From a virus: DNA of 25,933 nt. Where the stretch lies: positions 1 to 25,933 of the IMG/VR virus record IMGVR_UViG_3300031886_000034; one strand, 5' to 3'. How positions within the stretch are numbered: position 1 is the first letter of the stretch; the number at the start of each line of letters is the position of its first letter. Below, one piece after another: positions 1 to 18,383 of this stretch. Position numbers and translations under genes: made by a program. The notes under the pieces are model-generated. The model saw only the letters and a program-made list of their open reading frames with translations, did no database searches and was not told the origin of the DNA.

Positions 1-3000
1 ATTATTGATGACCTGCTGGACATGGCTCCTTCGGGCTTTGTCCGCGAGTTTCCTGATGGCAAACCCGTCGCTTACCCACGGGATGAGGTCCCTCGCCGCA
101 AGCGGTCTCGGGAACTTCGCGACGGCATGCGCTCCGGAAAACCAAAGACAAGGTTCATCCGTGACGGACTAACCGGTGAGTTCCGGGAGGTCCAACGAGG
201 AGAATATAAAACTGACTGGTACAACGCTGGCTCGACCGATGAAATCGGCCGGAGGAGACTTCCCTACTCGGGCCGTGGTGGTTTCACAGATACTCCCGCT
301 ATACCTCTTGAGGAAGATTACGACTCGACCCCCGAAGGTCTTCAGAAATTCCACGCAGATCTGATCGATCAGATGTCTCATCTCTTGGATGGCATACGTT
401 CATACAACAAACAGTTCGGCGAACTTGAAAACGAACTCGGCTTGCTCGACCCTGACGATGATGGTCCGCTAGACATATATTCGGACATGTCTCCGATGAT
501 TCACACCATCAAAGATCCAAACGAACTCGCAGAGAACTTCATGGAAGAATATGTTCGAATGGACTACACAACGGTCGACCCCTTAAGAGGTGACGACCCT
601 GTTCTCTTTACGGATGCTGAAGACAACGAGTGGGACGAAGAAGCGATCAGGGACACCATGCATCGGGCCCGTGGGATGCTTGATGATCAGGCTGAAAAGT
701 TTGCATGGAGTCGGCAATTAGACGAGATCATAGAAGATGAGTACGAACTCCGTAATCGCCTTAGGACGGAGCATGACATTACGTCCGACGAACTTCACGA
801 ATACCCGAGGGGCATCCTTGACGACAAGGATGGCGAACACCCTCTCGATGGGGATCCCATGCCGTTACGACGCAGTCAACGACGCGGCAGGTTCGAGGGC
901 GTGCGTTCCGCCCGTGCTGTGCCGGGACGACGCGAAGAGAGGGACGACTTCCAGAAGAACCTGAAAGAGACAGCAGATAGGTGGGGCTGGACGGTACCCC
1001 AATACAAGCGCTGGCGTAAACAACGTGCCAGGGGTCGACAGAGGGACGAAGAAATAGAAGATGGTGTTGAACCGGGCACCTACGACCCGCCCAGTCGTAA
1101 AGAGAGGCGGGCCCGAGCCAGGGAGGCGTTGAGACAAGGGGCGGAACGCGAAGGCGTGAGCATCCGTGAATACCGGGCTATTCGGGAGGAACGTCAGCAG
1201 GACAATCTCGACCTGCACTGGGACGACGAAGACAACAGCGGCCTTCAGCCGGGTCAAGTGGGCTTTGCTGGGGGCGTGCGCTCCCGGCGTACCAACGACG
1301 ATCTCAACAACCACACACGTCCTCTGGACGAAATTCTCTACCTGGATGACGGACCACTCAACCTGGAACAACGTGAGGCGCTCGACCACCTCATCCACCT
1401 CGTCGAAAATGAGGAAAGTGAAAACCGGGTAATGCCAGGCGAGACCGACGGAATAACCTCCATTCTGGCGGGAATCCGTGACAGGGGTCTGATGGAGGAC
1501 AAGCCCCTGACCGAGGACCAGACCTATGTTCTGGATGAACTCATCGACATCGTCAACGAAGACGGCGATATCGACTGGAAACACCTCACCCCGGGTCCGG
1601 CCGATTTCACTGACTCTGACGTGCGCGCGGACCGGCGGAACACGACCATCAGTCGGACGATCGATCGCCTGATCGAGTACCACCCGCCCCTCGAAGACGA
1701 CGACGACGACGACGAACACGACTTCAACGATGACTTCGAACGAATCGAAACTGACGATTTCGGCTATGGCGGCCTGCACTCCTCCCGGCGGTCCAATGAT
1801 GGCGATCGGGACCCCAGGCCCACCCATGACGCATTTGGGGATGAAATCGACTGGGAGGCCATGAAGGATGACGAGGCCGACTACTGGGAAAACAATATCC
1901 GGTCGCTCCGAGAGAGCAGAGGCTGGGAGGCGTGGGCTGATTCCGAAGACTTCGACAATGAGGGCTTGCGCTCAGCCGGCGACAACCGATACGCCCACAT
2001 GACATCAAGTGAATTGATGTATTGGGAAGAGGTTCTAGATGACATTCTCAAGGGTTGGGAGGGTGCAGGACCGGACGCAGATATCGACAAGATTGAAGAA
2101 CTCCGAGAGTCTGTTCGCATAGCGAACGACGCTCAGGACGCAATCGACATGGGTACCCCCGAAAACGCTGATGCCCTAATTGACATTCTTCAACGACACA
2201 TGACCACCGTTCCAGATCGCAATATGGGGGAAGCAAGGGACGTACAAGGTCTTATTGAGACTATTGAACAAGCCCGAGATAGTGGCGGTACATGGACTTC
2301 TGTAAATTTGGAAGATCGTGGCTACATGCTCGAGGACGGTCCAGATGGCATGCGCTCCCGGCGGGCCGTGCCGGGACGACGTCAAGCCAGGGAGGACCGT
2401 GAGCAGCGTGAGATAGAGATGGCAGAACGCCATGGCATGTCTATACCTGAGTACCGGAAATGGAAGAAGGACCGCCAGCAGTGGCGGCAAGAGGAAGCCG
2501 AACTCGACGACGGTGTTGAACCGGGCACCTACGACCCACCCAGTCGCAGGCAGGTACGGGCACAAGACAGGGAAGCACTAAGACGAGGAGCAGAACGCGA
2601 GGGTGTGAGCGTCCGCGAGTACCGAGCCATCCGGGAGCAACGTGAGCGGGACAATCTCGACCTGCATTGGGACGACGAAGACAACAGTGGTCTCCTGCCG
2701 GGTCAAGAGGGCTTTGCTGGCGGCACGCGCTCCCGGGTACTGCGGGGAGCCCTAGGTCCCATCGACTGGGATGCCTACGCAGACCACCCTGGCGCTCCAT
2801 CTGAAGAGAATCCCGGAGGAACGCGGGAATATTGGAATCAGCCTGTTACACCAAGACGCCCTAGCCTCCACCCGCCCCATCGGGATATGACTCTCGGTGA
2901 GCACTCGCTACACAAAGAAGCGGGAGTGAGGTCCGAAAAGAAGCCGGCGGTCCTGCGTCCAGGAGACAAGGTCACCGTCAACAATAGAGGCAAGACCGTT

Positions 3001-6000
3001 GAAGGAACCGTCGTCCGATTCGGACGCGGTGGAGCGAGCGGAAACGGCGTCGATTCTTATGTCGTGAGCATCCCCGGAGAACAAAGGTCGGTCTGGAAAC
3101 GCCCGGACCAGATTCTGGAAGGACTCCCGGCCACAAGTGGAGGTTTGCGCTCCCACGGCGACAACCGATACGCCCACATGACATCAAGCGAACTGATGTA
3201 TTGGGAAGAGGTTACGGATGACATTCTCAAAACTACTCGGGGTGCAGGGCCGGACGTAGACATCGACGCGATCGAAGAACTTCGAGAGTCCATTCGAACT
3301 GCGAACTTGGCTCAAGATGTAATTGACTTAGGCACTCCCGAACAGGCTGAAAACCTCGCCGACATTCTTCGACGACACATGACCACTATCCCGGACGAGA
3401 ATATCGGGGAAGCAAGGGACGTACAGGGCATTGTCGAAATTATCGAAAACGCCCTGAAGAGCGAAGGAACCTGGGTCTCAGTCACCCTGGAAGAGCGTGG
3501 CTTTATGCTCGACTTGCCCTCGATGGAGGGTGGTATGCGTTCCAGTAAGCGAGACGCAAAGATGCGACGCCAGCAGTCTCCAGTCCGTGGTGGTCGCCAG
3601 GGTCCAGGCGGAAAGGGCCATGCTGGCAAGCAGGGCAGGTCGTCGAGGGGTCTTCCAAAGCCGGCTATGTCCGATAAGGATTACTTCAAGGCCCTGAAGA
3701 AACTCTCACCCAAGAAGGTTCGAGAGTTGGCTAAAGAAGCCGGCGTCGACATGTCGGATATGACCCACTCTGATTTGATGCGAGCGCTCGCTGGTCAACG
3801 ACCCCGACCGGGCATACCGAACGTCCCCAACAGCAAGATTTATATCAAGCCGCGAGGGGCACCAGGGCAACCCATAGGGGGAGCACGTTCCCGTATGCGT
3901 ACCGCTGCCACTGATCGTGCTGCCACGCCGCAGGGGTTGGCTTCACGGACAAGGGCCCGCGCCTATAGGGCGGACCGGCAGACCGGTTCGGCGGATGGGC
4001 ATATCTGGGATCAATTGACTCCAGAGCAGCGGGAACTTGTCGCAGAGTCAGCGGCAGAACGCGCGAACTGGCTTTTGCAACGCTCCTTTGGGACGGGCTC
4101 GAAGAACACCAATTGGCTGGAAAAGTTTATTTCAGACATTCAGAACGGGAGAGAAGTACCCGCTCGTGGAGAAGCAAAGACGGGAACGGCCCGTCCCGTC
4201 GGCGAAGTAGATATAGATACCTTCCAGATTGAAACCAGGCGAGAACTGGAGATGTTCCACAGGTTCATCACTCAAGGTCGCGGTGCAGCAGGAAACGATC
4301 TATTCTCAAGATTCACAGGGAATAATGCTGCCCAGAAGAAAAAGCAACTGCAGCAAACCATGGACTACATCTCCGCTGAGTTCAACATGCGGATGTCCAA
4401 TAATTACGAATCGTTGGAGCACTTCCACGACAAGGACCTCGTCGGATCCCCCGGCAAGGATGTATCCGTTCTCCAAATAATGCGAAAGAAAGCAAAAGAA
4501 CGGGGAATCGCTGAAATCCCAGGCAACAAGAAACTGCTCTCCCCTGAGACCTACCGGGCTGGTCCCCGAAACAATCCCGACGGCACGCCGAAGATGGACC
4601 CCGACACTGGCGAGCAGGTCACCAGCAGCCAGCCACAGCACGTTTCGACTTTCTTTGGATTCGCTGGCGGTTTATCAGGCGAATCGTATGCCGAGGAACG
4701 TGGGACCAAGGCGCGAACGGGTCGGCGAAAGACGCGCACCGACAAGGAAGCGCGACGACTCGCTGACCATGGCATCTTCGAAATGGGTCAGAAGCGAAAG
4801 GCCAGAAGGGCACGGGCAGCCGCACGACGGGGTGAGGGCCAAGCCGATCCTGGTATGCAGGAAGCCGATACGAGTACTACCCTCGAAGAGCGAATCCGGC
4901 GTGCAAAGCGGAAGGCTCGCCTCCGCTTCGGCCGGAAGAAGAACGTCGGAGAATTGAACGCCAGCGTCAGGAAGGGGCGCGAGCAACAGAGACTTAAGCG
5001 CTCCACAACTGAGACGGTTCAAGGCGCTGGGGCAACGGAAGCATTCCCCGAGTGGGACAAGGCCGAGGGTCTCCCAGTCTTGGACGACGCCATGGTGGTT
5101 GCTCTTGATGGCATTGCCGGACGATGGTGGACGCGCGAAAAGAGCCTCGGGACGAGGGACCCCGACTATGTGTCGGGTGCGACAGCAAAAACTGACTCCG
5201 AGGTCCGGCGGGAAGCCGAGAATGCGGCCAAGGAGGCTGGCAAGAGTGCCGCAGACGTCACGAAGGCTGGAGATAAGGCTGTAGCAAAAAACGACATTAT
5301 GAACCAGTCGATCACTGCTGAAACACAGTTGATTCGTGACATGTATCTCAACCTTGGTTACAACGGAACCCCGCTAATCATCGGCGACAGGGAAGCACAA
5401 GCCGCATTGGACGACGGATGGACCCCTGTTCAGCGCGGCTTGGGCGGCAACCTTTCGCACCCGGACAGGGCAGAATCTCACGAGATAATGAGAAAACGAG
5501 CCCGCGAGTATATGGATAGCGAAAAGCGCTTCTACTCGGGCGGTGGCGGTCACGGGCCTCTGGACGACTGGGCCAGGCCCTTTGACCCGGCCGTCGGTGA
5601 AACGGATTCTCGCGCCGGCAAGACGGGCTCGTTGGCTGGGAACTACGGCATTGGGACACTGGCATTTATCAGTCCTGAGAACAAGACGGTTTCTCACCAG
5701 AAACTGAAACGGATCAACGACGAACATCAGGCCATCGTTAAGGCTGTGGAAGACATTTTGAAGACGCGCAGCGAAGGCGGAACGTTCGACGACGTTCTGG
5801 ACTTTCTCAGAAAGAACCCGGACGCTTCGCTCATCGAAGAACTCGACCGCCTCCAGAAGGCCCGCAAAATAAAAGTCCATAAACGGAGAAGTCACCGTCT
5901 GTTGAAAGGTGCCAACGCGGGAACCGGAACAGCAAAACAAGGTACAGGCAACGACCTTGACAAATTGGAGAGCCGATTTGCTGACCCCCTAGAGGTCGAC

Positions 6001-6417
6001 TGGAAGAAGACCGAAATGGGGGCTCTCGTCCATCAGGTTGTACAGAGGGTTGAGGCAGCGATTGCGGCCAATGACGACGCCGAGGCCAGGAAGCACGGGA
6101 AAATCCTAAAACTCCTTGACTACATGTCCAGCGAGCACGAGCATCTCACCGCTCCGTTGCTCGGATACGATGCTATTGGTAGGCACGCCGGTGTGACGAA
6201 GTTCATCAACAGGAGCGCCATGGTCATCCACGAAAGGCCGATGGGCCTAGGTGCGACCTTTGGGCATCCGGATGGGCCGATTAACAACGAAGGTGACGGA
6301 GTAATCCAGTTGGTTGACGAATTGTCTCCCGGACACTTCGAAGAGTCAATCAAGGCCGAACGTGCAGGCAAGCCCTTTAGGGGCGCTAGAGGCAAAAAGA
6401 AGAAGGGGCAGAAGTAA
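1..6417 (+). CDS. Giant modular virion-associated protein with G-x-R-S-delimited modules (5' end open)
   Basis: The first ATG is at 22 (2131 aa), but codons 1-21 are open in the same frame and no Shine-Dalgarno precedes that ATG, so the gene probably begins left of the window. Numbering from ATG 22, a G-[MVLTA]-[RH]-S tetrapeptide occurs at residues 35, 293, 418, 584, 648, 776, 901, 968, 1041, 1171 and 1287 and cuts the protein into modules. Modules 297-421 and 780-904 are duplicates, as are 652-779 and 1045-1174. Residues about 972-1035 look like a KOW/SH3-type barrel (RPGDKVTV). Residues about 1215-1250 resemble a small SAP/Rho-N-like helical domain. An acidic DDDDDD tract lies near 560. 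Residues about 1590-1660 are very Arg/Lys-rich. Residues about 1774-1900 resemble a phage ADP-ribosyltransferase, with TPVQRGLGG around R1805. It lies upstream of the capsid gene, so a MuF-like or internal virion role is inferred. No prohead protease was recognised. Confidence 0.8.
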   Translation: MIDDLLDMAPSGFVREFPDGKPVAYPRDEVPRRKRSRELRDGMRSGKPKTRFIRDGLTGEFREVQRGEYKTDWYNAGSTDEIGRRRLPYSGRGGFTDTPAIPLEEDYDSTPEGLQKFHADLIDQMSHLLDGIRSYNKQFGELENELGLLDPDDDGPLDIYSDMSPMIHTIKDPNELAENFMEEYVRMDYTTVDPLRGDDPVLFTDAEDNEWDEEAIRDTMHRARGMLDDQAEKFAWSRQLDEIIEDEYELRNRLRTEHDITSDELHEYPRGILDDKDGEHPLDGDPMPLRRSQRRGRFEGVRSARAVPGRREERDDFQKNLKETADRWGWTVPQYKRWRKQRARGRQRDEEIEDGVEPGTYDPPSRKERRARAREALRQGAEREGVSIREYRAIREERQQDNLDLHWDDEDNSGLQPGQVGFAGGVRSRRTNDDLNNHTRPLDEILYLDDGPLNLEQREALDHLIHLVENEESENRVMPGETDGITSILAGIRDRGLMEDKPLTEDQTYVLDELIDIVNEDGDIDWKHLTPGPADFTDSDVRADRRNTTISRTIDRLIEYHPPLEDDDDDDEHDFNDDFERIETDDFGYGGLHSSRRSNDGDRDPRPTHDAFGDEIDWEAMKDDEADYWENNIRSLRESRGWEAWADSEDFDNEGLRSAGDNRYAHMTSSELMYWEEVLDDILKGWEGAGPDADIDKIEELRESVRIANDAQDAIDMGTPENADALIDILQRHMTTVPDRNMGEARDVQGLIETIEQARDSGGTWTSVNLEDRGYMLEDGPDGMRSRRAVPGRRQAREDREQREIEMAERHGMSIPEYRKWKKDRQQWRQEEAELDDGVEPGTYDPPSRRQVRAQDREALRRGAEREGVSVREYRAIREQRERDNLDLHWDDEDNSGLLPGQEGFAGGTRSRVLRGALGPIDWDAYADHPGAPSEENPGGTREYWNQPVTPRRPSLHPPHRDMTLGEHSLHKEAGVRSEKKPAVLRPGDKVTVNNRGKTVEGTVVRFGRGGASGNGVDSYVVSIPGEQRSVWKRPDQILEGLPATSGGLRSHGDNRYAHMTSSELMYWEEVTDDILKTTRGAGPDVDIDAIEELRESIRTANLAQDVIDLGTPEQAENLADILRRHMTTIPDENIGEARDVQGIVEIIENALKSEGTWVSVTLEERGFMLDLPSMEGGMRSSKRDAKMRRQQSPVRGGRQGPGGKGHAGKQGRSSRGLPKPAMSDKDYFKALKKLSPKKVRELAKEAGVDMSDMTHSDLMRALAGQRPRPGIPNVPNSKIYIKPRGAPGQPIGGARSRMRTAATDRAATPQGLASRTRARAYRADRQTGSADGHIWDQLTPEQRELVAESAAERANWLLQRSFGTGSKNTNWLEKFISDIQNGREVPARGEAKTGTARPVGEVDIDTFQIETRRELEMFHRFITQGRGAAGNDLFSRFTGNNAAQKKKQLQQTMDYISAEFNMRMSNNYESLEHFHDKDLVGSPGKDVSVLQIMRKKAKERGIAEIPGNKKLLSPETYRAGPRNNPDGTPKMDPDTGEQVTSSQPQHVSTFFGFAGGLSGESYAEERGTKARTGRRKTRTDKEARRLADHGIFEMGQKRKARRARAAARRGEGQADPGMQEADTSTTLEERIRRAKRKARLRFGRKKNVGELNASVRKGREQQRLKRSTTETVQGAGATEAFPEWDKAEGLPVLDDAMVVALDGIAGRWWTREKSLGTRDPDYVSGATAKTDSEVRREAENAAKEAGKSAADVTKAGDKAVAKNDIMNQSITAETQLIRDMYLNLGYNGTPLIIGDREAQAALDDGWTPVQRGLGGNLSHPDRAESHEIMRKRAREYMDSEKRFYSGGGGHGPLDDWARPFDPAVGETDSRAGKTGSLAGNYGIGTLAFISPENKTVSHQKLKRINDEHQAIVKAVEDILKTRSEGGTFDDVLDFLRKNPDASLIEELDRLQKARKIKVHKRRSHRLLKGANAGTGTAKQGTGNDLDKLESRFADPLEVDWKKTEMGALVHQVVQRVEAAIAANDDAEARKHGKILKLLDYMSSEHEHLTAPLLGYDAIGRHAGVTKFINRSAMVIHERPMGLGATFGHPDGPINNEGDGVIQLVDELSPGHFEESIKAERAGKPFRGARGKKKKGQK
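910..1284 (+). repeat. Internal duplicated module A, copy 1 (125 codons)
   Basis: This module codes for AVPGRR..., two short G-x-[ST]-[VI]-x-[EQ]-Y motifs (GWTVPQYKRWRKQR and GVSIREYRAIREER), DGVEPGTYDPPSR and NLDLHWDDEDNSG, and it ends with GVRS. It matches 2359-2733 at the same length. The breakpoints fall exactly at G-x-R-S tetrapeptides. Confidence 0.85.
1975..2358 (+). repeat. Internal duplicated module B, copy 1 (128 codons)
   Basis: The module begins just after GLRS and ends with GMRS. It shares RYAHMTSSELMYWEE, a GEARDVQG segment and an LE(D/E)RG(Y/F)MLE-like end with 3154-3543. It is predicted mostly helical and acidic, and its function is unknown. Confidence 0.85.
2359..2733 (+). 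repeat. Internal duplicated module A, copy 2 (125 codons)
   Basis: This is the second copy of the 910-1284 module, with the same order of motifs: GMSIPEYRKWKKDR, DGVEPGTYDPPSR, GVSVREYRAIREQR, NLDLHWDDEDNSG. It ends with GTRS. It is diverged but has the same 375-base length, so this is an old in-frame duplication of a whole module. Confidence 0.85.
3154..3543 (+). repeat. Internal duplicated module B, copy 2 (130 codons)
   Basis: This is the second copy of the 1975-2358 module. It lies directly after GLRS and ends with GMRS. The two copies are separated by module A copy 2 and two unrelated modules, so whole G-x-R-S units appear to have been shuffled or duplicated. Confidence 0.85.
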
Positions 6418-6743
6418 TGGAGATGAACAAGGTCCTAGAAAAGATCAGGGAATACGAACACCTTCACAACTTTCCACCTTTTTCAATCAAACGACAGACT
6501 GAACGTGACGAGTTCGCCAGCGACTTCATGGGTGTAGACGTACTCCACGACGACCCTTTCGCAGAGGTTGAGAAAGTATGGTCCGAGCAACTCAAGGAAG
6601 CCCGGATGTATTCACAACGTTACGGGAACGATTGGAAAGGGGCCCGAGACGCTGCCGCCAAAATCGCAGACATTGACGTTGACAAAGTCACCTCTTACGA
6701 GGTCCTTCGATCTCCGAGTGGCCTCAGCAACTCTGGCTACTGA
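6417..6743 (+). CDS. Hypothetical protein, 108 aa, in virion operon
   Basis: The ATG overlaps the stop of the giant gene by one base (TAATG), and a purine-rich GAAGGGGCAGAAG lies upstream, so translation is probably coupled. The product is acidic, soluble and mostly helical, with no signal peptide or membrane segment. I do not recognise a family. Its place between the giant modular protein and the zeta-kinase protein suggests a virion or assembly role, such as a chaperone or internal protein, but this is positional inference only. Confidence 0.75.
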   Translation: MEMNKVLEKIREYEHLHNFPPFSIKRQTERDEFASDFMGVDVLHDDPFAEVEKVWSEQLKEARMYSQRYGNDWKGARDAAAKIADIDVDKVTSYEVLRSPSGLSNSGY

Positions 6744-6751
6744 TTTGCGTG

Positions 6752-9472
6752 ATGGGCAAAAATAGTGACCTCGTCGCGGACAAGGTAACCGCTTTACGAC
6801 TTGCGGAACGCATGGGTTGTCGCGGCGCGCACCAACACCCCGACGGGAAATGGATGCCCTGCGAGACCATGGAGGAGTACGAAAAACTCAAGGACAATAG
6901 GCCCACCTCCCAGAAGACCGGCCTAGACATCATCGAGCAGAACCGTCGTTACCGCTCCAGGAAGGGCAAAAAGAAACGAGGATGGGAACCCCTTGGCGAA
7001 AGAGGGTTGACCTCGATTGACACCATGCCCGGTGGTGGTTTGGTCGGCGGTAGAAGCGGCAGCATTAAGGCTCTGTGGGCACCGCGGGTCGGGGACACGG
7101 ACGTATTTACCAATGCCCGCCAAGCCCGACGAAGAGCAAGGGAACTCGGATGTATCGGAGTTTCCCGCCGTCGTTCCAACTCCGGCAAGACCGTTTGGAC
7201 GCCCTGCTCCAATATGACGGACTACCAGAAGCGCACTGGATCGACTGCGTTTGGACGCAACTGGCAGCGTCAGCAGGCACGGCGAGAAATGCAAAGCGCC
7301 GTTGAGCGAGAAGTTCGCCGGCAGTTACGGCGCAAAGAGTCCCTCACCGAAATGCTTTACGCAGAAAAGGCGCTGGGCCAGAAACTCCGACGCGCTCGAA
7401 TCGCTGCAACAGCACGGTTTGACCCCAATGCGGTAGACGCGGACGCTGACGCAATCGTCCAAGAGGGCACCCCTTTTGAGCGACCGGCCCTGCCGGGCCG
7501 GAGACTTGCCCGGCGAGCGGAACGCATGACCCGTCGCATGCAGGCCAGACAGACGCGACGGAGAATTGAACGGGACCCGGAATATCCAGACAGCCCCATG
7601 TCTGATGCTGAAATTGACGCGCAGTATGCAGATTGGTTGGAACGGAATCCAGGGTATATCGACGATGCCACCGAGCATGTCCAGGTCATGCTCTCCCCGC
7701 AGGCACATCAGGCTGCAGAGGGTCTACGGAGTAGGGCATCCAGTGGTGGCGACGGTAGGAAGTCCTCGAAGATAGAGCAGGCAAAGAAGAAGATTCTGGA
7801 TCGAATCAAACCGGAACACCGAAACAAAGATAAACGCACGATTCACTGGGTATTTGGCTCACCCGGCACCGGTAAGAGTCATCTTGTCAAAACAGGTCGC
7901 ATTGACGCCCCCAAGAAAGATGAGGCAGTCCATGTCAATCCTGATGATCTGAAACCCCATCTGCCTGGTTACGAGGAAGTCAATGGGGATTCCCATACCC
8001 ATATGGCATCCGTCCACGAAGCGGCAGACCTTATGGACTCTGCAGCCGAAGAGGGCATGGACATGGTTGTTCAGGGGACGGGAAAAAATAATCCTCTAAT
8101 AGCAAAGCATGTTCAGGACGAGTCCGGCTATGGGGATAAAAAAGTTCGCGAGCGCAAAAAGAATGTTAAGTCCGTAGCCCATCTGGTATACGGCGGTAGT
8201 GCTGATACCACCAACGACCGGATCGACAGGCGCAATGCCGACCCTCACTCAAAGCAGAGGAATAGGCCATTCGGTTCCGATAGGGAACTACTAGAAGAGC
8301 GTATGAGACTCGCGGACCAAATCGAACGCGGCTGGTACGACGAAGTATTTATCTATGACAACAGCGCAAATGTTAAAGATCCACCACTTGTCGCGTACCG
8401 AACCGCAGACGGAAATTTCGAAATCCTTAATAGGCAAAAATTCAACGACTTCTTCGGCGACCAACGCCATCCGCTTGATGCGCATGGCCGAACCGGCGCG
8501 AAGCGTGTGGAAGAGGCGTGGACTGGCCAACGTGATGGTACGCCCGTCTCATCTGGGGAACGTGGTCGCGGCTGGAGGCCGGATCGGCACTTCGACTCGC
8601 CCATTCCGGGAGATGGTCGCACCTATCGCGAGATTCTTGACGGGTTGGGGTACGGGGAGCAAACCAAGAAGCGGCCCAAGCCGCTACAGGGACCCCCAAC
8701 GCCACGAGGAATGGGTCATGAAGGGCGGATGGCTCGCAGGATCCAAGAAGAAGAGGAGGCCAAAAAGCCCGTAACGACGTCGATAGATCCTGCCACGGTT
8801 CGAGCGAACCGTCGTGCCGACCGAGATGCAAGCCGTGATATCGACGACTACGACAGGGATCCCGACGGCTGGCGAAACCGGTTCAGGCAACGCAGGCAAG
8901 AAAGTGCCGACCAGCGACGCGAACGTCGCGGGGAACGTCGCGAGGGAGTAAGAAGTAGGCGGTCCGACGAATGGGAAGGTAAAACGCTCACCGAACTGGC
9001 CCAAGAACTAGCCGACGAAGATGATGCGGCCTACGCCGCGGAATATGAAGAGAAGTACGGGCACCCACCCCCCGAAGGGGACGGGAATTGCTGGTCGGCC
9101 GCCTCGGAAACTGCCCTTGAGATGGACCGTGAGGGAACCATCGACATCGACGGCATGGGAACTTTCGAACCCAAAAACATTGAGGTGGTTCACGGCACCC
9201 CCTACGGCACTGGCGGAGACGCAGAAGGATTGTGGTACGGCCATGCGTGGACCGAGTTTGATATTGAAGTAGATGTCGGAAGAGAGGAACCCGTAGTCAT
9301 GAGGTGGGTTCGGGACGCATCAAACGGCAATAACCATATTCTTCCAACAGACTTCTATTACAAAGTCGGGAACATCGACAAGAACGATTTACATCGATAT
9401 ACCATTTCGCAAGTTCATGACAAGAGAGACGAGCATGGCCAGGACGGGCAATGGAATCGATGGGAGAGGTGA
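6752..9472 (+). CDS. Multidomain virion-operon protein: twin GC..PC motifs, zeta-toxin-like kinase, C-terminal Cys-His-Asp domain
   Basis: The ATG at 6752 (906 aa) is preferred; a GTG one codon earlier is also possible, and no clear Shine-Dalgarno is seen. Residues 1-320 carry two copies of a small motif, GC(R/I)G...W(M/T)PC (C23/C37 and C134/C152), followed by Arg-rich helices. GLRS at 324 and GVRS at 732 split the protein into three parts and match the tetrapeptide in the upstream giant protein. The middle part has a P-loop GSPGTGKS (369-376), then VNPDDLK (D398) and an Arg-rich RIDRRNADP segment, the layout of zeta-toxin kinases. Those enzymes phosphorylate UDP-N-acetylglucosamine, but the substrate here is unknown. 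The last part has NCW (C780), GHAW (H831) and RDAS (D855), the order of a papain- or transglutaminase-like triad. Such domains next to a capsid gene could be virion cargo. The kinase assignment is fairly firm; the triad is tentative. Confidence 0.85.
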   Translation: MGKNSDLVADKVTALRLAERMGCRGAHQHPDGKWMPCETMEEYEKLKDNRPTSQKTGLDIIEQNRRYRSRKGKKKRGWEPLGERGLTSIDTMPGGGLVGGRSGSIKALWAPRVGDTDVFTNARQARRRARELGCIGVSRRRSNSGKTVWTPCSNMTDYQKRTGSTAFGRNWQRQQARREMQSAVEREVRRQLRRKESLTEMLYAEKALGQKLRRARIAATARFDPNAVDADADAIVQEGTPFERPALPGRRLARRAERMTRRMQARQTRRRIERDPEYPDSPMSDAEIDAQYADWLERNPGYIDDATEHVQVMLSPQAHQAAEGLRSRASSGGDGRKSSKIEQAKKKILDRIKPEHRNKDKRTIHWVFGSPGTGKSHLVKTGRIDAPKKDEAVHVNPDDLKPHLPGYEEVNGDSHTHMASVHEAADLMDSAAEEGMDMVVQGTGKNNPLIAKHVQDESGYGDKKVRERKKNVKSVAHLVYGGSADTTNDRIDRRNADPHSKQRNRPFGSDRELLEERMRLADQIERGWYDEVFIYDNSANVKDPPLVAYRTADGNFEILNRQKFNDFFGDQRHPLDAHGRTGAKRVEEAWTGQRDGTPVSSGERGRGWRPDRHFDSPIPGDGRTYREILDGLGYGEQTKKRPKPLQGPPTPRGMGHEGRMARRIQEEEEAKKPVTTSIDPATVRANRRADRDASRDIDDYDRDPDGWRNRFRQRRQESADQRRERRGERREGVRSRRSDEWEGKTLTELAQELADEDDAAYAAEYEEKYGHPPPEGDGNCWSAASETALEMDREGTIDIDGMGTFEPKNIEVVHGTPYGTGGDAEGLWYGHAWTEFDIEVDVGREEPVVMRWVRDASNGNNHILPTDFYYKVGNIDKNDLHRYTISQVHDKRDEHGQDGQWNRWER

Positions 9473-9742: not shown

Positions 9743-11062
9743 ATGTCAGAAGACGCTTCCCGTCTTGGCGAATTGCAGTCAGCGCTTCGTACCAAGATGG
9801 ACGACAACAAGGCCATCGCCGATTCCTTCCAGATCGAAGACGGCGTTGTTCAGGTCGATCAGGACCAGAAGTCCGCATTCGACAAGAACATGGCCGACAT
9901 CAAGGAGATCCAGAGTCTCATTGATGGAGTCAAGTCACTGGAAGAGGTTAGCGCCTGGGGCGCACAGCCGGATTCGACCGCTTCGGTCGCCGCTGCTGCC
10001 GCTGCTGGTTCAGCCCTTTCCCTGCCGGCTCAGTACAAGAGCATCGGCGAGCAGTTCACCGATTCGGAGGAGTTCAAGCACCTCCTAGGCGGTCGCAACG
10101 GCGCCAACATGCCGAACCCGTGGCAGTACGAGGGTTCGCTGACGACCAAGGAACTCAGCGTCAAGGACGTTTACTCGGCATTGCCCACAGGCACTCCGGG
10201 TTCCTTCGGTACCATCCAGCGTGATCCGATCGTCATCCCGCCGCAGCGGACCAAGCGAGTTCGGGACCTTTTCCCGACCCGTCGGACCACTGCTGCGATC
10301 ATCGAGTACTTCCGGATGACCGGATTCACCAACGCTGCTGCAGCGGTTTCGGAGCGCTCAGGTTCGCCTGAGGTCTTCACGGCCAAGCCGCAGTCAGCAT
10401 TCACGTTCGTCGGCGAGCAGGCCCCTGTGCGGACCCTCGCTCACTGGGAGGCTGCTCACCGCAACGTCCTGGCCGACGAGCCGCAGTTGCGGTCAATCAT
10501 CGACAACGAGTTGATGTACGGCCTCAGGCTGCAGGAAGACTCCCAGATCCTCAACGGGAATGGCTCAGGCGAAAACCTGACCGGAGTCCTCCAGACCACA
10601 GGTATCCAGACCTACTCATGGTCTGCCGGCGCATTCACTCCGGTTCCGGATACCAAGGCTGACGCTCTTCGGCGTGCGGCAACCCTGGCGTTCCTTGCTT
10701 ACTACGAGCCCACGGGCGTCGTGATGCATCCGAACGACTGGGAAGACATTGAGTTGACGAAGGATTCGAACGGCCAGTACCTGGTCGCCGTATCCGTCGC
10801 CCTCGGTGGCGAGCCTCGCGTCTGGCGTCTGCCGGTCATCGAGACCCCGGCGATCGCGGAGGGCACTGCCCTTCTCGGCGCTTTCGGTACCGGTGCCCAG
10901 TTGTACGACCGCGAGCAGGCCAACATCCGCGTGAGCGAGCAGCACAGTGATTTCTTCGTGCGCAACGCCGTGGTGATCCTGGCTGAGCAGCGTCTCGCCC
11001 TTGCCGTCAAGCGGCCCGAAGCATTTGTGAAGGTTACCTTCAACAACGCTCCGACCTCGTAG
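9743..11062 (+). CDS. Major capsid protein (HK97 fold)
   Basis: The 439-aa product forms the icosahedral head shell. It has the layout of the phage capsid family (PF05065). Residues 1-70 form a charged coiled-coil delta-like domain, followed by an Ala-rich linker (VAAAAAAGSA). From about 120 comes the HK97 core, with DPIVIPPQRTKRVRDLFPT, the E-loop/spine region around residue 190, LADEPQLRSIIDNELMYGLRLQEDSQILNGNG, and a C-terminal GAQLYDREQANIRVSEQH...ALAVKRPEAFVKVTF strand. The start has a strong Shine-Dalgarno. Codons are C/G-ending and uniform compared with the giant gene upstream, which fits high expression. Processing of the delta domain is not certain; GVKS near residue 61 is the closest match to the G-x-R-S motif. 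A terminator follows immediately. Confidence 0.93.
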   Translation: MSEDASRLGELQSALRTKMDDNKAIADSFQIEDGVVQVDQDQKSAFDKNMADIKEIQSLIDGVKSLEEVSAWGAQPDSTASVAAAAAAGSALSLPAQYKSIGEQFTDSEEFKHLLGGRNGANMPNPWQYEGSLTTKELSVKDVYSALPTGTPGSFGTIQRDPIVIPPQRTKRVRDLFPTRRTTAAIIEYFRMTGFTNAAAAVSERSGSPEVFTAKPQSAFTFVGEQAPVRTLAHWEAAHRNVLADEPQLRSIIDNELMYGLRLQEDSQILNGNGSGENLTGVLQTTGIQTYSWSAGAFTPVPDTKADALRRAATLAFLAYYEPTGVVMHPNDWEDIELTKDSNGQYLVAVSVALGGEPRVWRLPVIETPAIAEGTALLGAFGTGAQLYDREQANIRVSEQHSDFFVRNAVVILAEQRLALAVKRPEAFVKVTFNNAPTS

Positions 11063-11870: not shown

Positions 11871-12403
11871 ACACCTTTCAAGAACTGCAACTCTGGAGCA
11901 GCGCAGAGTGCGTTCGTCCTCGCGTCCACGCCGAAAAAGCAATCTCTCATCAGGCGACCGTTGTCGGCGGGCCAACCAAAGGTGTCCGCTCAGCGACTAG
12001 ACGCCAGTTGGATTACCACACATACGGTGAAGCGATCATCGAGAACCTGCTGACCGTCTGCAAGCAGAACAATGTGTGGGGGTTTTCCACGTTCAGCGGG
12101 GAGTCAGGACTTCCTTCTGTCGATGTCGTCCGTTACGGGCCTGAAGACTTCTACAAGTCGCATACCGACTGGGGCAACAAGCACCAGAACCGCAAAATTT
12201 CCTTCACGATCCAACTTACCGATCCCAGTCAATATGAGGGTGGCGACGTTTGGCTTTATGACGGTCCGGAAGCCTGGCGCGTCAGCAGAACACAAGGTTC
12301 GATGACGATCTGGCCTTCATGGACGCTCCACAGCGTGGATCCCGTTCTAACCGGAGAACGGTGGTCGCTTGTCGGGTGGGTTTTAGGACCGCCGTTTATT
12401 TAA
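11867..12403 (+). CDS. Fe(II)/2-oxoglutarate-dependent hydroxylase (PKHD type) with probable CTG start
   Basis: The conserved core reads SHTDWG (H99, D101), a distal TLHSVDP (H155) and GERWSLVGWV (R165), the H-x-D...H iron site and 2-oxoglutarate-binding arginine of prolyl-4-hydroxylase-like enzymes. The first ATG/GTG/TTG in frame is TTG 12008, but the open frame upstream encodes the usual N-terminal part of the fold (SAECVRPRV, ATVVGG, VRSATRRQ). CTG 11867 has GGAGGGG at 11853-11859 and forms a 4-base CTGA overlap with the nuclease stop. This gives 178 aa. Such phage enzymes hydroxylate proteins, DNA bases or small molecules; the substrate is unknown. The 3' end overlaps the convergent nrdJ gene by 8 bases. 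Confidence 0.82.
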   Translation: MNTFQELQLWSSAECVRPRVHAEKAISHQATVVGGPTKGVRSATRRQLDYHTYGEAIIENLLTVCKQNNVWGFSTFSGESGLPSVDVVRYGPEDFYKSHTDWGNKHQNRKISFTIQLTDPSQYEGGDVWLYDGPEAWRVSRTQGSMTIWPSWTLHSVDPVLTGERWSLVGWVLGPPFI

Positions 12404-14318
12404 TCGGACAAGCGCCAGTACTGCAATCGTCAAAGTCGATAGCGTCAGCAGCCACAGACACCAGTGGGACCGAAAAATCGATCTTTCCGACTGACTTCTC
12501 ATATTCTTCCTCCGTTATTTCTTCGTATGGAGGTAGCGGGAAATTGTGATCAGTGTGCAACAGGAACGACACACTCTTGATTGAGTTCTTATAGTTCTTA
12601 GTCAACCATTCCTGGATCTCCGGCAGTTCGTCATGTTGATAATAAACTGTTACCGATACGGCGTTGTCAGCCCATTCGGTCTGTAGCCGCTTAATCCATT
12701 CCAATTGATCAACCGCTGTCATCTCACTTGCCAAAACCGCACCTTCTGGAGATTGACAAGGAAACTCAACGACCTGACTGGTGCGATCCTTGCGGCCATC
12801 CAGCCCTACATCCCATTGAACCTTGTAACCGCGGTTACGGCATGCTTCCACCAGCGGATCCGTTGAGCGAAACCTGACCCGGCGAATGTAGTGGCGAGCA
12901 AACGCGGGGTGTACGCCAGGGGTCACCCCCGGCAGCAGGGACAGCGTTCCGGAAGGTTGGACCGTGGTCAGGCGAACCGACTTGGGTAAGCCGTGCTTCG
13001 TCGAATATTCATCATCCAAACTGGATAGATATTCATAGATTTGCGACATCCAACCCAACTGCTTCTCAGATGCCTGCAACACTCCTGTCACGGACTGACC
13101 CAACCTCGAGTTCTTGGCAACAATCTTGGTCGTCTTCTCATAAGGGTACTCAAGCCGCGTGACCTGCTTCTGCGCCAGATAAAGTAAGCGGGAAATCTCC
13201 CGCATCTGCTTTAGCGACTCCATGTTCGGAAGAAAAATCGTCGCCAGATTGCACGACTCCCCGTCCCCGAGCGCAATCTCGGCGCAGGGGTTAAACCCCT
13301 CAATGCTGTTATCTGTCTTGCTCTCTCCGAGGCGTCCAACCCTTCGAGCCAACTTACGATTAACCAATCCATACGGCTCTCCATTGCCGTTATACCCCTT
13401 CCACAACTCCGGCAGGATCTCGTCGTAGGAATCGGCATAAATGCTGTTATTGCTGTGCGACCTCCAGGCGGGAACAGTTCCCGTCGCCCAGTTCTTGGCC
13501 CGGATGAACAGGACGTCATCGGGGTCACCGATGGCGATCTCAGCGGAGCGTCGTGCCGAACCAGACACCACCACTCGTCCAATTATGTTACATATATCTA
13601 GAACATCCACAGACCGCAACTTCTTGCCTTCTCGACCTTGCATCACCGCGCAAATGTCGGCAATTCCATCAATCAGAGCGCCAGGTCCCGAAGCAGTGCC
13701 ACCGAACGTCTTGAGTTCGGCTCCCGACTCCCGAATCAGAATCGTGGAGTACGAGAACGACTTGCCCGTATCGAAAAACGACTTGAGTGTGGAGTGCAGC
13801 AGCCGGCTCCACCCCTGTCGAGAGTCTGGCACGATGATGTCAGCGTCATTGGTCCGATCATGAGTGATTTCTACGCCGGCTTTCACCTTGGGCAATTCGT
13901 GGATTTTGGCTCGCTCCACTGAAAAACCGACGCCTCCGCCCAGCATCAGCATGTCGAAGATGAATTCGAAATCTTCCACCGTCTCAACGTTCACGAAGTA
14001 ACAGTTGTTGAGGCTCGCACCGCCCATGTTCTGAACGAGAGGTGTTCCCAATTGCCACAATCCCCTGCCAGCGAACGAGCAACGGAGGTTGAACATATGG
14101 TCAAACAGAAGTTCGGCCTCGGCCTGCGTATACGGCACGCCAATCTCGATGGCGCCGTTAACGACCCGCTGGATTGTCTCCGGCCAAAGTTCAGTACGGT
14201 CGTGCCCGTTCTTGCGGCTGTAGGTGCGGAGATAAACTACTTCTCCTAAACCACCAAACCCCCATGGCGCTAATTGTGTCCTGTAAGCGTCAACAAAGGA
14301 GTCTGTGATTTGAGGCAT
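12396..14318 (-). CDS. nrdJ: Adenosylcobalamin-dependent (class II, monomeric) ribonucleotide reductase
   Basis: The 640-aa enzyme reduces ribonucleotides to deoxyribonucleotides for phage DNA synthesis, probably at the triphosphate level. It matches the monomeric RTPR type. SLNNCYFVN holds C106, and FNPCAEIALGDGESCNL holds thiyl-radical C345, partner C356, N343 and E347. The C-terminal CSTGACPIK has the swinging disulfide pair C632/C637. It is about 100 residues shorter than the Lactobacillus enzyme. It needs no separate small subunit or activase but depends on B12 from the host. The ATG at 14318 has no obvious Shine-Dalgarno. A perfect TTGACA on this strand lies at 14398-14403 across the end of the preceding gene, without a good -10. 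It converges with the hydroxylase. Confidence 0.95.
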   Translation of the reverse strand: MPQITDSFVDAYRTQLAPWGFGGLGEVVYLRTYSRKNGHDRTELWPETIQRVVNGAIEIGVPYTQAEAELLFDHMFNLRCSFAGRGLWQLGTPLVQNMGGASLNNCYFVNVETVEDFEFIFDMLMLGGGVGFSVERAKIHELPKVKAGVEITHDRTNDADIIVPDSRQGWSRLLHSTLKSFFDTGKSFSYSTILIRESGAELKTFGGTASGPGALIDGIADICAVMQGREGKKLRSVDVLDICNIIGRVVVSGSARRSAEIAIGDPDDVLFIRAKNWATGTVPAWRSHSNNSIYADSYDEILPELWKGYNGNGEPYGLVNRKLARRVGRLGESKTDNSIEGFNPCAEIALGDGESCNLATIFLPNMESLKQMREISRLLYLAQKQVTRLEYPYEKTTKIVAKNSRLGQSVTGVLQASEKQLGWMSQIYEYLSSLDDEYSTKHGLPKSVRLTTVQPSGTLSLLPGVTPGVHPAFARHYIRRVRFRSTDPLVEACRNRGYKVQWDVGLDGRKDRTSQVVEFPCQSPEGAVLASEMTAVDQLEWIKRLQTEWADNAVSVTVYYQHDELPEIQEWLTKNYKNSIKSVSFLLHTDHNFPLPPYEEITEEEYEKSVGKIDFSVPLVSVAADAIDFDDCSTGACPIK

Positions 14319-17510: not shown

Positions 17511-18383
17511 TCAGGCGGCTTCCTCCAAGTCCTTGAGGGCCGCGTTGTACAGGTCGCGCAGAATCTCCTTACCGGTGATCCTGATGGCGGCACCCTTCTT
17601 GCGGGCGTCCGGCCATTCGGGACGAGCCGTCTCGTAGTGCGCGCGCTTGGCGTCATAGACCGCCCGGTACGGGCTGGGGGCGTCCACCTTCCCAGTGGGA
17701 GTCGTGCCGCCCTTCCTCATCATGCAGCGGGTCGCCATCTGGTTGACGGTCATCTTCGCAGTCGGGTTGCCCAACTTGAGGGCGTCATCCTGCGTCATGC
17801 CCTTCTTGCGCTTGCGGCTGGGGTCGCCATGACCGCAGTACGACCACAGGTCGGAAACCCGGCGAATGAACGGCTCATCCTCAACAAGGATCTTCTCGTC
17901 CTCGTCATCCCCGCCCTCTTCCCAGTGTGCGGGAAAGGCCACGATGGGGTGACCGATCTCACCCAGCAGGCGGGCAACGGTCTTGTCGCCGATCCCCCGC
18001 TGGTCAAGAAAAGCCTGCATGTGGGGACCACAGATGGCCTTCATCATGTTGGTGAGTTGCTTGATCGCCACCGTTTCGGCCTTCACGATCAACTCGTAGG
18101 CGCCCTCATCAGGCACGTCAACAGGCTGCATGTTCTCGTCGAACATGATTCGCCCATCTTCGTCACGGATCTTGTCGCGATACGCCGACCGGCAAAGCAA
18201 CTTGAAGTCACCGGACGAACGTGACGGGCAATCCTCGCCCATGCGGTCAAGGAGGGTGGCGTAGAACCGGTTTTCGAGACCGATTCGTGTCCTCTCCAAG
18301 TCAGACAGAGTGCGGCCAATCGACCGGATCTGGCTGTACTCGTCCCTTATGGATTCCTGCGTCTGCAGGTCTATCTCAAGCAT
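17511..18383 (-). CDS. Helix-hairpin-helix protein resembling IS110-type transposase C-terminal region, 290 aa
   Basis: The N-terminal 120 residues are mainly helical. Then FLDQRGIGDKTVARLLGEIG (about 126-145) is a helix-hairpin-helix DNA-binding element, followed by RRVSDLWSYCGHGDP and a basic RKRKKGM. This order recalls the C-terminal half of IS110/IS116 transposases (GIG..TA..LLAEIG then L..YCG), but the N-terminal DEDD catalytic domain of those enzymes is not seen and no element ends were found. It is therefore more likely a phage DNA-binding protein than a mobile element. GAGAG lies about 8 bases before the ATG. Confidence 0.8.
   Translation of the reverse strand: MLEIDLQTQESIRDEYSQIRSIGRTLSDLERTRIGLENRFYATLLDRMGEDCPSRSSGDFKLLCRSAYRDKIRDEDGRIMFDENMQPVDVPDEGAYELIVKAETVAIKQLTNMMKAICGPHMQAFLDQRGIGDKTVARLLGEIGHPIVAFPAHWEEGGDDEDEKILVEDEPFIRRVSDLWSYCGHGDPSRKRKKGMTQDDALKLGNPTAKMTVNQMATRCMMRKGGTTPTGKVDAPSPYRAVYDAKRAHYETARPEWPDARKKGAAIRITGKEILRDLYNAALKDLEEAA

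Follow-up and report, generated by a model that had tools for sequence, protein, structure and literature searches.

The stretch of DNA analysed here, referred to below as the window, comprises positions 1 to 25,933 of the IMG/VR virus record IMGVR_UViG_3300031886_000034 (25,933 nucleotides). The element in question is a short peptide motif, G-[MVLTA]-[RH]-S, that recurs in a giant open reading frame (ORF) located 3.3 kb upstream of the gene for the major capsid protein (MCP). The giant ORF occupies 22..6417 on the plus strand and encodes 2131 amino acids counted from the first ATG; its frame is open to the contig start, and the true N-terminus and residue numbering may lie further upstream. 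In the translation of 22–6417 the motif is found, always on the plus strand, at residues 35 (GMRS, 124..135), 293 (GVRS, 898..909), 418 (GVRS, 1273..1284), 584 (GLHS, 1771..1782), 648 (GLRS, 1963..1974), 776 (GMRS, 2347..2358), 901 (GTRS, 2722..2733), 968 (GVRS, 2923..2934), 1041 (GLRS, 3142..3153), 1171 (GMRS, 3532..3543) and 1287 (GARS, 3880..3891), all within the first 1308 of the 2131 residues. A GIRS at residue 124 (391..402) may be a chance copy, and a GLAS at residue 1305 (3934..3945) is a variant form, GMAS and GFAS being the motifs of the relatives G032 and G030. The copy at residue 968 lies in an aligned region common to the relative L006, which has EGMRS at that place.

Two duplications within the giant ORF run from motif to motif: residues 293–421 correspond to residues 776–904, and residues 648–779 to residues 1041–1174. 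The copies at residues 293 and 418 mark the start and end of the first duplicate of one pair (B1) and those at 648 and 776 the start and end of the first duplicate of the other (A1). The copy at 776 is at the same time the start of B2, which ends at 901, and A2 extends from 1041 to 1171. Eleven sites, the additional GIRS and the breaking of both duplicated pairs at the motif had been proposed in a first-pass annotation made from the sequence alone, and all were recovered at the residues given there. That annotation had expected about one site by chance; over 5000 shuffles of the 2131-residue protein the expectation was 0.36 and the maximum 4. The commonest pattern of the form a.bc in this protein is G.RS, with 11 occurrences. 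In an unbiased scan of the two large window ORFs, which covered all three-residue patterns spanning up to six residues and was corrected for all such patterns, G.RS was top-ranked (14 occurrences versus 1.6 expected; Bonferroni-corrected 2e-4). Shuffling inside stretches of 10 or 20 residues, used as a control for linkers rich in Gly, Ser and Arg, gave an expectation of 0.7–0.8 for the same 14 occurrences.

Direct searches with the 2131-residue protein found no relatives in IMG/VR or among isolated phages. The whole ORF gave no Pfam match at E <= 0.01, and a search in parts gave sub-threshold matches only. Its C-terminal region (approximately residues 1747–2074; 5260..6243, plus strand) is conserved and also occurs in relatives; no fold match was obtained for it. 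An ADP-ribosyltransferase label for this region, which was based on likeness by eye, was dropped as it had no Pfam or Foldseek support.

The second large ORF of the window (907 amino acids; 6749..9472, plus strand) has a DUF3721-type N-terminal domain, a zeta-toxin kinase and a C-terminal Cys-His-Asp module, and contains two more G-x-R-S sites, at residues 325 and 733. The first, GLRS (7721..7732), directly precedes the zeta-toxin-like kinase module (7751..8461), which was recognised by Pfam and by Foldseek matches to epsilon/zeta structures (E ~1e-6). The second, GVRS (8945..8956), directly precedes a papain/transglutaminase-like Cys-His-Asp module (8954..9448) that is possibly a peptidase. 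The zeta toxin of this ORF, plus the Cys-His-Asp module, is the only recognised effector in the window. The Cys-His-Asp module follows the pattern GNCW ... GHAW ... DASNG and has relatives in G011, L003, L004, L038 and L047. The same ORF carries, at 7412..7486, a second shared element, ARFDPNAVDADADAIVQEGTPFERP, which consists of a DxDxDG-like loop and EGTPFERP. All of these features are on the plus strand, as is a 108-residue ORF (6417..6743) that is conserved beside the giant ORF.

Relatives were reached through the MCP, and the best 80 of 402 IMG/VR stretches were taken; the sample was therefore picked by MCP similarity and contains several near-duplicates (G012/G014, G003/G016). The stretches from protease to MCP were read in 28 genomes. 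Giant ORFs in the relatives sit between an S78 prohead protease or a portal-size ORF and the MCP. Many contain 4–8 G-phi-R-S sites, and others have no G-phi-R-S but a different recurrent motif. The S78 protease was found in the contigs of 29 of 34 relatives, within open frames of 474 to 4905 amino acids, with His, Ser and Glu conserved at the presumed catalytic positions, and in many relatives the S78 domain heads a motif-bearing giant ORF. The window contig begins downstream of the expected position of the S78 gene, and the protease and the start of the giant ORF probably lie off the contig.

Each genome has one recurrent motif, which is G(M/L/V/F)RS, GMAS, GFAS, (G/R)(L/F)SSG, (I/V)(S/T)GxM or STRS. 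Five motif classes were tabulated in 29 genomes including the window; the classes were named after inspection of the data, which is partly offset by the unbiased scan and by the domain test described below. A motif is present in 23 of the 29 genomes (weakly in one, G025), and the classes are almost mutually exclusive. G-phi-R-S genomes contain at least 10 and up to 50 copies, versus 0.3–1.5 expected, and the other classes are all but absent from them. G-phi-A-S has 14 copies in G032 and 17 in G030; [GR][LF]SSG has 13–19 in G012, G013, G014, G017, G024 and G033 (0.1 or less expected) and 4 in G025; [IV][ST]G.M has 15–19 in G015, G028, G029 and G020 (0.3 expected); and STRS has 35 in G011 (0.4 expected). 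In the unbiased scan the signals of G007 and G005 were weaker. Several giant ORFs of a genome, up to five and unrelated to one another, share one motif, and as many as 23 copies occur in one protease-containing ORF of 3661 residues. The motif is confined to the giant ORFs between protease and MCP, and portal-size ORFs have none; in G003 and G016, in which the MCP was not recognised automatically for the class table, direct reading found the MCP and the later ORFs to be free of it. Inter-domain linkers are rich in Gly, Ser and Arg, and chance or linker composition might be thought to generate such a motif; this is contradicted by the shuffles inside 10–20 residue stretches (0.1–2.4 expected versus 14–50 observed across genomes) and by the mutual exclusion of the classes, and is scarcely credible.

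The motif switches between closely related genomes. In the MCP tree G011 (STRS) stands beside G026 (GMRS) with support 100/99 and G031 (GMRS) beside G032 (GMAS) with support 100/100. In local alignments GLRS is exchanged for GMAS at homologous boundaries (residues 546 and 1886 of G031 against G032), and GMRS for STRS at residue 3512 of G026 against G011; at several other boundaries STRS is found near the site given by the alignment. One group of genomes has GMRS or GLRS ahead of the C-terminal domain of the protease ORF, and G011 has STRS there; the C-terminal domain of a second giant ORF follows GMRS in G003 and G016 and ISGRM or ISGKM in G015, G028 and G029. Homologues in which the tetrapeptide is missing from module boundaries, named in the first-pass annotation as evidence that would speak against it, thus exist, and they have a different genome-wide tetrapeptide at the same boundaries.

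Most copies are encoded by different DNA words (20 of 20 in G003, 12 of 13 in the window and 29 of 51 in G026), which indicates that selection acts mainly on the peptide. Together with the switching, this points to something genome-specific that recognises the peptide. The Ser codons at the motif are biased to TCN over AGY in several genomes. This bias hints at shared descent of the copies and, with the breaking of duplicated modules at motifs, would fit an origin as a by-product of module shuffling, in which module-end sequences shared as recombination seams are homogenised within a genome. The diversity of DNA words argues against such an origin, as do the Arg-to-Ala switches at homologous sites of G031 and G032, which would need several independent changes, and we regard it as quite improbable.

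The positions of the motifs were compared with Pfam domains in the giant ORFs of the relatives. These comprise the S78 protease, DUF3721, zeta toxin, pentapeptide repeats, ArdC-N with MPTase-PolyVal and NUDIX, and further DnaJ, GNAT (weak), KTSC, UvrD helicase, RNase_T and sigma70 region 4/HTH. In twelve giant ORFs none of 115 motifs lies inside a domain, versus 14.4 expected (p < 1e-4, circular shift), and a motif lies between the members of 17 of 20 neighbouring domain pairs (p = 0.05 for separation alone). Zeta toxin, ArdC/metallopeptidase, pentapeptide, NUDIX, DnaJ, UvrD and RNase_T are among the modules set apart by motifs. The unseparated pairs are ArdcN–MPTase (twice) and S78–DUF6321, which are 19–28 residues apart. 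In G012 the UvrD helicase is flanked by sites at 1895 and 2548, and ArdC starts eight residues past a site.

Upstream of the first motif, many giant ORFs contain the second shared element, (A/R)FDPxAxDxDxDGxVQEGTxFxRP, of which the element in the 907-residue window ORF is a close form. The DxDxDG loop followed by EGTxFxRP usually occurs once per giant ORF and is possibly a tether or assembly element. Such an element ahead of the first motif would also suit a motif that acts as a docking or cargo-loading peptide, tethering the giants to a head component without cleavage and repeated for avidity; genome-specific recognition and several copies per protein would fit binding too. A docking peptide would, however, have no need of strictly inter-domain placement or of following the boundaries of module duplications, and this explanation is rather unlikely. 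In some ORF families the C-terminus follows the last motif at an almost fixed distance (142–149 amino acids in the protease-region ORFs of the G-phi-R-S and STRS genomes). A C-terminal extension of the post-portal giant ORF is common to L074 and L075 and is not present in the window; it has no Pfam match above the curated cutoff.

The giant ORFs are probably virion polyproteins in which effector (`polyvalent') domains are strung on a short, genome-specific protease recognition site, G-phi-R-S being the version of this phage. The site would be recognised during head maturation by a phage-encoded protease, most likely the S78 enzyme, whose coding sequence lies upstream in relatives, often as an N-terminal fusion to one polyprotein. 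Cutting would then release effectors of one domain each, to be ejected together with the DNA. S78 is the foremost candidate on four grounds: its presence, its conservation, its specificity for the head and its frequent fusion to a polyprotein. That cleavage takes place, which protease acts, and that the products are packaged and ejected are inferences from the comparison of sequences. A recurrent module-end signal in a virion-region polyprotein, as suggested in the first-pass annotation, is well supported by 22 other genomes. The maturation-protease part of that suggestion stands as the best explanation on comparative grounds, with the motif-free MCP as a point against it.

An enzyme other than S78 might cut at the motif, for example the embedded MPTase-PolyVal metallopeptidase, the Cys-His-Asp module or, after ejection, a protease of the host. 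MPTase-PolyVal occurs in some giants, and metallopeptidases of this kind have been proposed as processors (Iyer et al., 2017; PMC5512222). In the window and G011 the Cys-His-Asp module comes directly after a motif, and in L003 and L004 after a LASRR variant. The MCP sequence does not follow the motif class, which would also suit a different enzyme. Nevertheless, neither module was detected in all of the motif-bearing genomes examined, while S78 was detected in nearly all, and the motif switches between sister phages would be hard to attribute to a host protease. An enzyme other than S78 is accordingly considered unlikely.

Several observations weigh against processing by S78. The delta region of the MCP holds no conserved G-phi-R-S site, and the MCP around K-D-[VI]-[YF] is constant across the motif classes; maturation of the MCP by S78, if it takes place, must therefore involve another site. 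In six relatives the S78 protease is accompanied by no clear motif. The ORFs of most of the six are smaller, several of the six have Pro-rich repeats, and the protease-to-MCP regions of G018, G021, G022 and G034 contain repeats rich in Pro, Ala and Lys as well as smaller ORFs, which suggests an unprocessed arrangement. In G005 and G011 the protease ORF is split in two at a break that is not at a motif. BLAST matches end near motifs at a rate only modestly above chance (0.149 versus 0.088). In an AlphaFold model of the 907-residue ORF each of the two motifs is placed inside a predicted helix or at its end, beside low-confidence stretches (331–338 and 732–741), and not clearly in an open loop; the helices have low to moderate confidence. 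The model is only moderately confident and speaks neither for nor against accessibility of the sites.

Polyvalent proteins of phages and conjugative elements are large multidomain proteins encoded beside virion genes. In the available text of Iyer et al. (2017; PMC5512222) embedded peptidases are predicted to process them, a role in virion assembly is given to assemblin-like peptidases and an analogy to viral polyproteins is drawn. The domain repertoire described there overlaps that of the relatives' giants (MPTase-PolyVal, ArdC-N, zeta toxin, GNAT, NUDIX, helicase), and the giants likewise have several effector domains per polypeptide in the relatives and are encoded among virion genes. The assemblin-like peptidases are C-terminal according to the same text, whereas the S78 domain is N-terminal in the giant ORFs; a recurrent inter-domain or genome-specific motif was not found in that text. 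In SPN3US, phiKZ and T4 internal head and ejection proteins are processed by a prohead protease whose several head substrates have one short, lineage-specific motif in common, which is AxE in SPN3US and SxE in phiKZ (PMC5694885, PMC10052503). Those enzymes cut after Glu and for the most part take off propeptides; their substrates include the MCP. The site predicted here is, in contrast, based on Ser, Gly and Arg and occurs up to 23 times per protein between effector domains; rather than being common to all substrates including the MCP, it is found in the giants only.

Among the matches listed, no isolated phage record exceeds ~49% MCP identity or ~43% protease identity. The isolated phages Cantare, Gray and GMA6 have MCPs that are 46–49% identical and a homologous S78 protease, and effector-like genes (VIP2-like ADP-ribosyltransferase, RNA ligase) lie between portal and MCP. 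In these phages, however, such genes are mostly separate, the protease is of normal size and directly precedes the MCP, and the ORFs of over 600 amino acids upstream of the MCP have no such motif. Polyvalent proteins and shared prohead-protease motifs are known separately. In the open-access literature searched, no precedent was found for their combination with concerted motif switching, for a repeated, genome-specific inter-domain motif, for its combination with an N-terminal S78 domain or, beyond the papers cited, for a prohead-protease polyprotein.

Downstream of the 907-residue ORF, an HK97-fold MCP without the motif is encoded at 9743..11062 on the plus strand. A ribonucleotide reductase (RNR_Alpha and barrel domains with a B12-dependent insertion domain; 12396–14318, minus strand) adjoins the head genes, and an ORF at 17511–18383 on the minus strand matches a PHROG annotated as transposase (phrog_4285, E 2e-22). 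Host assignment via genome contigs was inconsistent (Acidimicrobiia, Actinomycetota, Phycisphaerae, Gammaproteobacteria and Verrucomicrobiales metagenome-assembled genomes). The phage family is aquatic and probably has actinobacterial hosts, the host call being based mainly on the nearest isolated phages.

In a more far-reaching form, to which we give about an even chance, the giants would be self-processing effector polyproteins that carry their own prohead protease at the start of the chain; a genome would have dozens of inter-domain cut sites, and each lineage would have moved to a different `key' (GMRS, GMAS, GFAS, LSSG, ISGxM, STRS), all sites being changed together with the protease. If the processing scheme is true, it would provide sequence-level evidence of polyprotein-like processing of polyvalent phage proteins, and the predicted cut sites would give the boundaries of single injected effectors, many of them in unannotated protein. 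The motif offers a simple means of splitting giant phage proteins into modules for annotation, and the sister genomes with switched motifs would constitute a natural experiment on the joint change of protease specificity and dozens of target sites.

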